A stretch of 64,000 nt of DNA. Source: Bacillota bacterium (lineage in GTDB: Bacteria > Bacillota > UBA5301). The stretch's first letter is position 1. Every line of letters begins with the position of its first letter. Location of the stretch: contig JACDOJ010000001.1 in the NCBI GenBank assembly GCA_017656135.1, positions 124,001 through 188,000 on the forward strand. The letters run 5' to 3'. Made by a program: the position numbers and the translations under genes. The notes beneath the pieces are model-generated. The model searched no databases. It saw only the letters and a program-made list of their open reading frames with translations, and had not been told where the DNA came from. Positions 49,379 through 54,983 of this stretch are shown in pieces.

Positions 49379-49396
49379 GTGCACAGTTTTGTGCAC
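49379..49396. promoter_or_regulatory. Perfect palindromic operator candidate
   Basis: GTGCACA-GTTT-TGTGCAC, two perfect 7-bp half sites, 7 nt after the predicted transcription start and 16 nt before the start codon of the HTH regulator. A likely autoregulatory site. Confidence 0.6.
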
Positions 49397-49412
49397 AATG
49401 GAGGAACCAGCG

Positions 49413-49943
49413 GTGGATTTCGTCCGGATCGGCAGCAAAGTCATCAGCCGCCATAAGCTTAATTTGGCCATCGACAAGATTCTCGACCTCAGAGTGCAAG
49501 GCTATTCCCAGTCCGAAGTGGCCAAAATCACCGGCATCGACCGCAGTTTCATCTCCCGGTTGGAGACCTTGGGTGAGGTCAAAAAGGGCCAGCGTCTGGC
49601 TGTGGTGGGTTTTCCGGTGGGCAACAAACAGGAGCTGGAAGAGCTCTTGGCCCAAGAGGGAGTTGAGTATACGCTGCTGCTCACGGAGGAGGAACGCTGG
49701 GCCTTTTTTTCCGGGAAGGATGGTGCTGAGGTCTTCAACGAGCTGATGTGCATCCTCTCTCAACTGAGACAGTACGATGTGGTCATTTTCTTTGGCTCAG
49801 ACATGCGGAACAAGATTGTGGAATCCATCCTAGGCAGCCGGGCAGTGACTGTTCCCATTGGTGAATCCCCAATTAAAAGGGATGTTTATCTGGACCCGGC
49901 AGAAGTACGGAGCCTAGTGAGGAAGGTGCGAAAGGAGAATTAG
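49413..49943 (+). CDS. HTH transcriptional regulator
   Basis: 176 aa. An N-terminal helix-turn-helix (SQSEVAKITGIDRSFISRLETLGEV, about 30-54) is followed by an effector-like alpha/beta domain that has a conserved run VVIFFGSDMRNKIVESILGSRAVTVP. GTG 49413 has GGAGG 8 nt upstream. It lies 1 nt before the 'quinate dehydrogenase' gene and has a palindrome in its leader, so it probably controls itself and the two genes after it. Effector unknown. Confidence 0.82.
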   Translation: MDFVRIGSKVISRHKLNLAIDKILDLRVQGYSQSEVAKITGIDRSFISRLETLGEVKKGQRLAVVGFPVGNKQELEELLAQEGVEYTLLLTEEERWAFFSGKDGAEVFNELMCILSQLRQYDVVIFFGSDMRNKIVESILGSRAVTVPIGESPIKRDVYLDPAEVRSLVRKVRKEN

Positions 49944-49944
49944 A

Positions 49945-50850
49945 GTGAAGCGAGTGGTCAGCGTCAGCATTGGGTCTTCAGAGCGTAATCACAGAGTGGA
50001 AGTGGATATCCTCGGTGAGCCTTTTGTCATCGAACGAATCGGAACTGACGGTGACATGGAAAAGGCGGTGGAGCTGATCCGGGAGTTAGACGGCAAAGTC
50101 GATGCCTTTGGCATGGGGGGGATAGACCTTTTCATCTGGGCTGGGTCCAAACGCTACACTTTCCGGGATGGGAAGAAGATCTTTCGGGCCGCGACTAAAA
50201 CGCCAATTGTTGACGGCACCGGCCTCAAGAACTCCTTGGAGCGGAAGGTGGTGAACTGGATCCAAGATAAAGGGATCATCGATTTCAAAGGGTGCAAGGT
50301 CCTCTTGACCTCTGGCATGGATCGCTTTGGCATGGCCGAGGCTCTGGTGGAACATAAGGCAGACTTGGTCCTGGGGGATCTTATGTTCGCCCTGGGTGTT
50401 CCCATTCCCCTTCACTCCCTTAAGACTTTACACCGCTTAGCAGCGATTTTGGCCCCGATCATCGTTCAGCTGCCTTTTGAGTTGCTCTACCCGACCGGGC
50501 AGAAACAGGTTAAGGAAAGTAAACCCCGCTTTGAAGAGTGGTACCAGTGGGCTGATGTTATTGCCGGCGATTTCTTGTTCATCAAGCGATACATGCCGAA
50601 GGATTTGAGCGGCAAGACTATACTGACCAACACCGTGACCGCCAAGGATGTCGAAGATCTGAAGAGGAGGGGAGTTAAAAGGCTTATCACCACTACTCCT
50701 GAGCTCTCCGGCCGGTCTTTCGGAACCAATGTAATAGAGGGTGTTTTGGTCACTCTGGCCGATAAACCCTATAACGAACTCACTCAGGAAGACTATCTGG
50801 AGCTTTTGGAGAGAATTGGATTTGAACCCAGATTGGAAGAGTTAGCATAA
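49945..50850 (+). CDS. Conserved protein annotated elsewhere as quinate 5-dehydrogenase; function unproven
   Basis: 301 aa, no signal. It starts KRVVSVSIGSSERNHRVEVDILGEPFVIERIGTDGD and has FGMGGIDLFIWAGSKRY and a GVKRLITTTPELSGRSFGTNV segment. It lacks an obvious Rossmann GxGxxG loop. Databases often name this clostridial family quinate dehydrogenase, but I see no shikimate/quinate motifs (no S-x-SLS or K-D pair), so the name should be doubted. It sits between an HTH regulator and the acyl-ACP-reductase-like gene and probably works with the latter. Confidence 0.7.
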   Translation: MKRVVSVSIGSSERNHRVEVDILGEPFVIERIGTDGDMEKAVELIRELDGKVDAFGMGGIDLFIWAGSKRYTFRDGKKIFRAATKTPIVDGTGLKNSLERKVVNWIQDKGIIDFKGCKVLLTSGMDRFGMAEALVEHKADLVLGDLMFALGVPIPLHSLKTLHRLAAILAPIIVQLPFELLYPTGQKQVKESKPRFEEWYQWADVIAGDFLFIKRYMPKDLSGKTILTNTVTAKDVEDLKRRGVKRLITTTPELSGRSFGTNVIEGVLVTLADKPYNELTQEDYLELLERIGFEPRLEELA

Positions 50851-50878: not shown

Positions 50879-52009
50879 TTGAACAGATTCGCTTTTATCA
50901 TTCATCCTTTGGATACTGAAGACATTTACCGAAAGTTTCCCTTGGCCAAACGATTGCCTCAGGCTTGGATAGAGCATGGACTTTCCCGCCTGCCGGCCTT
51001 AAAGATTTCAGAGATAACTGGGGTCCGGTCTAAGACCGGTGCCGAAACCAGGGGCTGGTTTGTGGCCTGTCCGGTGACCAGCAGGCTGATGATGAAGCTG
51101 CCTGAGGATTATGTCCTCCAGAAGATCACTGCCAGTGCTAGGCTGGCGGAGAAGCTGGGGGCCCAGATTGTGGGGTTGGGGGCTCTGACTTCGGTAGTGG
51201 GAGATGCCGGTGTAACCGTAGCCAAGAATGTGAACATCCCTGTGACCACAGGGAACAGCTACACGGTAGCTACTGCCCTGCAGGGTATCAAGAAGGCTGC
51301 CACCTTACTAGAAAAGGATCTGTCCCAGTCGGTGGTGGCTGTGGTCGGAGCCACCGGCTCCATCGGCAAGGCCTGTTCTCGGCTTTTGGCCCGGCAAGTT
51401 CGGGAGTTGGTTCTGGTCGGCCGCAGGGAGGAGGCTTTGAACCGCCTCGCTGACCAGATCAGAACGGCGGGGAGCGTGGCCGAAGTGAAGGTGTCCACGA
51501 ACTCCAGAGGCGCCTTGGCCAAAGCCGACGTGGTGGTGACGGTGACCAGCGCGGTGGATACCATCATCGAACCCCAGGACTTGAAGTCCGGGGCCATCGT
51601 CTGTGATGTGGCCAGACCCAGGGATGTCTCCAAGAAAGTTGCCGAGCTTCGCAAGGATGTGCTGGTTTTTGAGGGAGGAGTTGTGCGGGTTCCAGGGAAT
51701 GTGGACTTTGGTTTCAATTTCGGTTTCCCGCCGGGAACTTCTTACGCCTGTATGGCTGAGACCATGATCTTGGCCCTCGAGGGCCGGCTGGAGTCTTACA
51801 CCTTGGGCCGGGATTTAACGGTGGAACAGGTCACGGAGATCGCCGAGCTGGCGGAGAAACATGGATTTACCCTGGATGGTCTCCGCAGTTTTGAACGGGC
51901 GTTGGCCGATGAAGAGATTGAGGCCATAAAGAAGCGAATAAAGAGTAAGCACGGTGTGGTGATTCCCCTGGATATTTCTACCACTCAGGACGAGGCCAGC
52001 TTAGCTTGA
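50879..52009 (+). CDS. Acyl-ACP reductase (AAR)-like oxidoreductase
   Basis: 376 aa. The order of motifs matches cyanobacterial long-chain acyl-ACP reductase: FAFIIHPLDTEDI start, LGAQIVGLGALTSVVGDAG, VTTGNSYTVATALQGIKKAA, the NADP loop VAVVGATGSIGKACSRLLA, then GGVVRVPGNVDFGFNF and the ending EKHGFTLDGL. AAR makes fatty aldehydes from acyl-ACP. Here no alkane-forming partner (ADO) is seen. TTG 50879 is used; AAGGAG is 15 nt upstream, rather far. A second possibility is a short-chain dehydrogenase with another acyl or keto substrate. Confidence 0.78.
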   Translation: MNRFAFIIHPLDTEDIYRKFPLAKRLPQAWIEHGLSRLPALKISEITGVRSKTGAETRGWFVACPVTSRLMMKLPEDYVLQKITASARLAEKLGAQIVGLGALTSVVGDAGVTVAKNVNIPVTTGNSYTVATALQGIKKAATLLEKDLSQSVVAVVGATGSIGKACSRLLARQVRELVLVGRREEALNRLADQIRTAGSVAEVKVSTNSRGALAKADVVVTVTSAVDTIIEPQDLKSGAIVCDVARPRDVSKKVAELRKDVLVFEGGVVRVPGNVDFGFNFGFPPGTSYACMAETMILALEGRLESYTLGRDLTVEQVTEIAELAEKHGFTLDGLRSFERALADEEIEAIKKRIKSKHGVVIPLDISTTQDEASLA

Positions 52010-52034
52010 CAAATCAAATTCCCTACATTATAAT
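52006..52034 (+). promoter_or_regulatory. Full-consensus sigma-A promoter
   Basis: TTGACA (52006-52011), 17-nt spacer, TATAAT (52029-52034): every base is consensus. It overlaps the stop codon of the AAR-like gene. Transcription should start near 52041. Confidence 0.88.
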
Positions 52035-52039
52035 TATCT

Positions 52040-52125
52040 AAAATTTTACAGGATAGGCACTGGCCAACGGCCGGTGCTTATTACTGGTTCCCCGGCTTCT
52101 AGCTCGGGGCCTGTAAAATTTTTGC
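52040..52125 (+). ncRNA. Candidate three-way-junction RNA upstream of greA
   Basis: A 13-bp outer stem (AAAATTTTACAGG 52040-52052 with CCTGTAAAATTTT 52110-52122) closes two inner hairpins: AGGCACTGGCC-AAC-GGCCGGTGCTT (52055-52079, 11 pairs with two G-U) and CCCCG...CGGGG (52090-52109). The predicted transcription start coincides with the first base of the outer stem, and a short T-run follows. It could be an independent small RNA or a leader controlling greA-lysS. No known family is recognised. Confidence 0.6.
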
Positions 52126-52202
52126 TCGAATACTCATAATATGCTGCACATACATTAAACCTGATTTCGACAGGGTAAGCAGAGTTAGAGGGGAAGGGTA
52201 AA

Positions 52203-52676
52203 ATGGCAGATAAGTACCTGTTAACCCGAGAGGGTTTGAAACAGAAAGAAGCTGAGCTGGAGTACCTCAAAACCGTGAAGCGTCGTGAGATAGCAGCTCG
52301 GATTAAGCAGGCACTGGAGTTTGGCGACATCAGTGAGAACTCAGAGTACGATGATGCCAAAAATGAACAGGCCTTCGTCGAGGGCCGGATTGCCACTTTG
52401 GAGAAGATCCTCCGGAACGCTCAGATCATCGATGACGACGAGTACGATGAAGAGACCGTCAAGATCGGCCACAAAGTGACCATCAAGGATATGGAAACCG
52501 GTGATGAAGAGGAGTACCAGTTGGTCAGCTCCGCCGAGAGTGATCCGGCAAAAAACAAAATCTCCAATGAGTCTCCGGTGGGCAAGGCTATCCTGGGCCA
52601 GAAGATCGGCTCCATTGTCGATGTTCAGGTTCCCGCAGGGGTAATCCAGTATAAAATCATTTCGGTTTCGCGCTAA
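52203..52676 (+). CDS. greA: Transcription elongation factor GreA
   Basis: 157 aa. The N-terminal coiled coil (LTREGLKQKEAELEYLKTVKRREIAARIKQALEFGDISENSEYDDAKNEQ) carries the acidic tip DISENSEYD that enters the RNA polymerase channel. The C-terminal FKBP-like domain follows (TVKIGHKVTIKDMETGDEEEYQLV, SPVGKAILGQKIG). A ribosome binding site GAGGGGAAGGG precedes ATG 52203. It is followed by lysS at 18 nt. Confidence 0.97.
   Translation: MADKYLLTREGLKQKEAELEYLKTVKRREIAARIKQALEFGDISENSEYDDAKNEQAFVEGRIATLEKILRNAQIIDDDEYDEETVKIGHKVTIKDMETGDEEEYQLVSSAESDPAKNKISNESPVGKAILGQKIGSIVDVQVPAGVIQYKIISVSR

Positions 52677-54983
<2,307 letters not shown>

Follow-up and report, generated by a model that had tools for sequence, protein, structure and literature searches.

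A conserved hairpin behind a consensus-perfect promoter in the greA leaders of Bacillota

Autoregulation through a greA leader has, as far as we could find, been worked out only in E. coli, where the controlling element is GraL, a leader RNA that arises from an imprecise terminator ~19 nt past the start (PMC6829880). The GreA feedback there operates in cis, requires GreA to be catalytically active and depends on the leader and on the hairpin sequence; it was not reproduced in vitro, and its mechanism in E. coli was left unresolved (PMC6829880). More broadly, greA leaders are described as frequent predicted attenuator sites, from Proteobacteria to Clostridia, in a comparative study (PMC2965389).

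Here we describe a structured leader ~80 nt ahead of greA-lysS in an uncultured Bacillota lineage. The window is the whole stretch of DNA that was analysed, 64,000 nt in length (genome G000, contig C1, 124001-188000). The features of the locus, in window coordinates, are as follows.

52006-52034, + strand: full-consensus sigma-A promoter, TTGACA-17-TATAAT, recognised by sequence and kept in relatives.
52041, + strand: predicted transcription start, placed from promoter spacing (+7 from the -10 box).
52040-52052, + strand: 5' arm of the outer stem, partner of 52110-52122; the pairing is specific to the window genome, and the sequence, AAAATTTTACAG, also occurs in relative G001.
52053-52081, + strand: hairpin 1, the conserved greA-leader hairpin, supported by a match to model R1, covariation and excess over shuffles.
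52078-52089, + strand: U-containing tail of hairpin 1 (TTATTACTGGTT); the U-tract is weak, interrupted and partly paired.
52090-52109, + strand: hairpin 2 (CCCCGGCT...AGCTCGGGG), from the fold; not conserved in relatives.
52110-52122, + strand: 3' arm of the outer stem, merging into T5 at 52119-52123; not conserved.
52128-52156, + strand: sigma-E-type (sporulation) promoter-like site, GAATA (52128-52132), 16 nt, CATACATT (52149-52156), supported by conservation.
52203-52676, + strand: greA, the gene that the leader serves, which encodes the transcript cleavage/elongation factor (Pfam GreA_GreB_N and GreA_GreB).
52695-54257, + strand: lysyl-tRNA synthetase gene (class II, lysS-type; Pfam tRNA-synt_2 and OB-fold anticodon domain), the probable operon partner of greA.

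The window leader resembles the GraL system (Potrykus and colleagues; PMC6829880) in that an RNA hairpin forms near the start, in the greA 5' leader downstream of its promoter. Shared features are a short greA leader, a hairpin ~20 nt past the start and an extra alternative-sigma promoter at greA. The E. coli P2 promoter uses the envelope-stress sigma-E, not the sporulation sigma-E, and it overlaps the main promoter, whereas the extra promoter of Bacillota lies downstream of the hairpin. The GraL hairpin, GACCTGGG...CCCGGGTC, is soon followed by T7, whereas the Bacillota hairpin, AAGCACTG...CAGTGCTT, has an interrupted tail, and by inspection the two have no sequence core in common. The greA attenuators predicted for bacilli and Clostridia by Naville and Gautheret (2010; PMC2965389), compared here by description only, share the gene, the place and a terminator-type hairpin. 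The accessible text of that study reports antiterminator structures, of which we found none above chance for the Bacillota hairpin, and mentions neither the consensus promoter nor the sporulation promoter.

As the earlier note claimed, the promoter ahead of greA is perfect (TTGACA at 52006-52011, a 17-nt spacer and TATAAT at 52029-52034; 12/12 positions match) and lies at the end of the previous gene, whose TGA stop codon (52007-52009) sits within the -35 box; the structured greA leader has a promoter of its own. The gene that ends at 52009 is dehydrogenase-like, with a Shikimate_DH domain, and the ORFs upstream of it (49389-49943 and 49945-50850) have no Pfam match at 1e-5. Judged from its sequence, the promoter is probably strong. 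The -35 and -10 boxes are identical in both family relatives of the window genome. Perfect TTGACA-N16-18-TATAAT occurs in 177 of 208 greA upstream regions (0-1 in shuffles) and is otherwise rare, with 26 sites across the 1.9 Mb window genome. The combination of such a promoter with an early hairpin could limit escape or cause backtracking near the start, a step that GreA speeds, in which case GreA would boost its own synthesis. GreA does aid promoter escape (PMC6829880), but autoregulation in E. coli is negative and promoter-independent (PMC6829880), and simpler reasons exist for a strong promoter; we consider this promoter-escape sensor improbable.

The folding energy of the RNA from ~52041 is -42.5 kcal/mol (z = -5.67), and none of 200 shuffles is as low. 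The stem described in the earlier note, which encloses two hairpins and closes before a T-run, is present: 52040-52052 and 52110-52122 form a perfect 13-bp helix, a length reached by 0/20000 dinucleotide shuffles (best, 12). Hairpin 1 has arms at 52053-52065 and 52069-52081, an AAC loop (52066-52068), a core of CACTG (52058-52062) and CGGTG (52072-52076), and a foot of GGCACUG...CGGUGCUU.

How much of this fold is conserved? Two other genomes of the window's family, G001 and G002, were compared. Both share with the window genome the promoter, hairpin 1, the promoter-like site near greA and much of the initially transcribed sequence, and both lack the outer stem and hairpin 2. The enclosing stem amounts to 5 and 7 pairs in G002 and G001, respectively (shuffle means 6.6 and 5.8), and averages 7.2 pairs over 63 leaders against 6.7 in shuffles. 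The 13-bp outer stem was rejected as a conserved unit on these grounds, and with it the idea of a conserved three-stem object. The conserved unit is one hairpin and a perfect promoter, not a three-stem sensor, and a sporulation bypass promoter probably accompanies it. The enclosing stem and second hairpin appear to be additions of the window lineage. L234 and L146 are among the few other leaders with long enclosing stems of their own; that of L234 surrounds the conserved hairpin with 17 pairs and has a T-run at its end, like the window's, and is apparently of separate origin. The first transcribed bases after the -10 box look conserved within groups of greA leaders (for example, ACCTATAAAC, GTACAGGAAC and AACGAGTAATG), which may be a sign of control at promoter escape or by the initiating nucleotide.

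The suggestion that the leader senses something would make it a riboswitch or protein-sensing element, in which the window's three-stem junction binds a ligand and switches greA-lysS. The three-way junction is very stable, as its z-score attests, and the promoter and leader position are conserved, but the junction and two of the three stems are not preserved in the closest relatives. No mutually exclusive pairing exceeds chance, and a search of the flanks for an antiterminator partner of either hairpin arm gave nothing above chance (5' arm, 3.98 against 4.11), which gives no indication of a classic attenuator switch. Rfam covariance models produced no match to the leader at gathering score and nothing credible at permissive thresholds, which leaves it uncatalogued there. 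The junction-based riboswitch reading is largely refuted, and we regard it as the remotest of the explanations considered. The description of the leader as new holds in part: it has no Rfam family, and no paper describing a greA leader hairpin with this sequence in Bacillota was found among the open-access papers searched, but greA attenuator leaders have been described in E. coli (PMC6829880) and predicted in bacilli and Clostridia (PMC2965389).

The spread of hairpin 1 was assessed in 208 distinct regions upstream of greA, gathered from relatives, from genomes of the phylum and from GTDB representatives. In this sample, which is uneven and overrepresents GreA proteins similar to that of the window, the exact core (CACTG-N3-45-C[A/G]GTG) occurs in 68 leaders, or about one third (four of them set aside as doubtful), compared with 2.1 in shuffles. 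Matches mostly lie 15-45 nt past the -10 box, and the hairpin sits 15-30 nt past the predicted greA start (median 23 nt). By a tally from genome tables, carriers span 27 family-level groups, and within the window's class, the hairpin core is present in all genomes that yielded this greA. A covariance model finds the hairpin, in the sense direction, at ~66 of 136 greA loci (about one half), including variants with AAGCACTA or similar cores. On the window, model R1 scores 26.5 bits (E 2.8e-6), with the window hairpin itself among the 44 model sequences.

The first 80 nt of greA leaders are more structured, with a mean z of -3.2 where the hairpin is present, -1.6 where it is not and -0.19 in the control. 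Between 34 and 41 of 107 leaders without the hairpin core are significantly structured, and leaders without the exact core often bear a different hairpin in the same position, such as AGTGTCAAG...CTTGACACT. This second hairpin class, with a T-rich tail, was seen in other Bacillota, in leaders L240, L045, L167, L074, L180, L035, L090, L114 and L102.

Covariation was scored in 61 gap-free leaders, with loops removed, as a 12-pair helix. Paired cells make up 90.7% of the helix, compared with 79.2% in shuffles and ≤50.7% when the arms are slid, and double changes number 98 where 35.5 are expected. The covariation score is 0.364 (against 0.160), and 0/500 shuffles attain it; common descent inflates such counts, but this effect is not seen in the slid controls. 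Five core pairs belonged to the selection rule and say little, and the constancy of the core is partly by construction. The four inner pairs show all Watson-Crick types, and the foot (AAG/CUU) is also informative. The covariation that the earlier note asked for is found in hairpin 1; the outer stem and hairpin 2 are unkept in the two family relatives.

Loop length varies from 8 to 33 nt among greA leader hairpins, which suggests that the constraint acts on pairing in the RNA and not on a protein-binding site in the DNA. The core is strictly conserved and palindromic, as might be expected if the inverted repeat AAGCACTG...CAGTGCTT were a repressor site downstream of the promoter. However, the arms are spaced without fixed phasing and the inner four pairs co-vary freely, which a fixed operator does not account for, so we hold a DNA operator to be very unlikely.

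The same covariance model also matches elsewhere in each genome, and the hairpin was rejected as a greA-only motif because these matches include ordinary terminators genome-wide. Of the 20 non-greA matches inspected, most directly follow the 3' end of a gene or separate two converging genes. T-runs are common among them, and a preceding sigma-A promoter was found for none; by sequence and placement, they are ordinary terminators. That the same stem elsewhere serves in this way suggests that the greA leader carries a terminator-type hairpin adjoining its promoter. Intrinsic terminators in these genomes that have the form AAAGCACTG...CAGTGCTTTTT share the stem sequence pattern with the greA hairpin and have more T in their tails (5.4 T in 8 nt for same-shape genome terminators, compared with 4.4 for greA-leader hairpins). 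Unlike them, the greA copies occur 15-30 nt past the predicted start of a perfect promoter. A simple scan rule found no terminator-like site in the window leader, and the constancy of the core sequence, though partly a product of how leaders were selected, appears to exceed the need of a plain terminator.

A weak U-tract would suit a structure that is not meant for termination, such as a hairpin that protects the greA-lysS message from 5'-end-dependent RNase decay and exerts no control over elongation. The hairpin is indeed within 15-30 nt of the start, and the window's 13-bp outer stem begins right at the transcription start. Yet those same 15-30 nt leave most leaders with 5' RNA before the hairpin, a poor arrangement against 5'-end attack, and neither the constant core nor the U-rich tail would be needed for such a role. 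We think a 5' stabiliser unlikely, although it is the most plausible of the rivals, followed in falling order by the promoter-escape sensor, the DNA operator and the riboswitch.

The sigma-E-type site downstream of the hairpin has boxes of the form ATA, 16-18 nt and a CATACANT-like element, conserved in relatives, and we take the sequence at 52128-52156 to fit the consensus of the mother-cell factor sigma-E. Both family relatives have GCATA-N16-CATACATT, and the -10 element and spacing are identical in the three family genomes. The pattern ATA-N15-18-CATA[CT]ANT occurs in 42 of the 208 greA leaders (0.75 in shuffles), and in 29/29 leaders that have both, the site is 3' of the hairpin, 36-71 nt ahead of the start codon. 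The window genome encodes sigma-E (413 bits), as judged by a match of a kind found in 79 of 80 sampled genomes, so presence of the gene gives no contrast with presence of the site. No paper on sigma-E control of greA was found among the open-access papers searched. Because the site lies beyond the hairpin, transcripts from there would lack it, and we infer that the mother cell could in this way bypass the hairpin.

So, what might the hairpin do? Our favoured reading, with a probability of roughly 0.55, is that the very strong promoter is followed by a leaky terminator or pause element, which determines how much transcription reads through into greA. The consensus-perfect sigma-A promoter would load RNA polymerase rapidly and at an almost constant rate, and ~15-30 nt past the start, the nascent RNA would fold the conserved hairpin, followed by the U-rich interrupted tail. 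The hairpin would then stall or end part of the transcripts near the promoter, with release of a short RNA of perhaps ~40-90 nt. In the weakest step, drawn by analogy with E. coli GraL, the read-through fraction may respond to the level of GreA or a partner factor, giving negative feedback. The sigma-E-type promoter would start RNA past the hairpin, and if it is used, greA would be made without the brake in sporulating mother cells. In the window, the extra stem and hairpin 2 could provide a second stop at 52119-52123 or shield the 5' end.

The leaky-terminator reading is supported by the hairpin excess, covariation, loop variation, terminator-like copies, leader structure, the precedent of greA attenuators and the sigma-E-type site. 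It is weakened by the poor U-tract, the failed terminator rule, the missing antiterminator and an overly constant core. A stronger version, which we put forward tentatively and consider doubtful, is that the GCACUG hairpin is a dedicated, sequence-specific greA brake across Bacillota, recognised by polymerase carrying GreA or by a partner factor, that holds GreA constant, and that the sporulation promoter just past the hairpin turns this brake off in the mother cell.

We read the Bacillota hairpin as a functional analogue of GraL from E. coli rather than as a ligand-sensing riboswitch. That a distant phylum has an unrelated hairpin at the corresponding position suggests that greA is generally controlled immediately after initiation. 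The constant core found in dozens of lineages offers direct targets for mutation, and the downstream sporulation promoter provides a testable link from GreA to spore formation.
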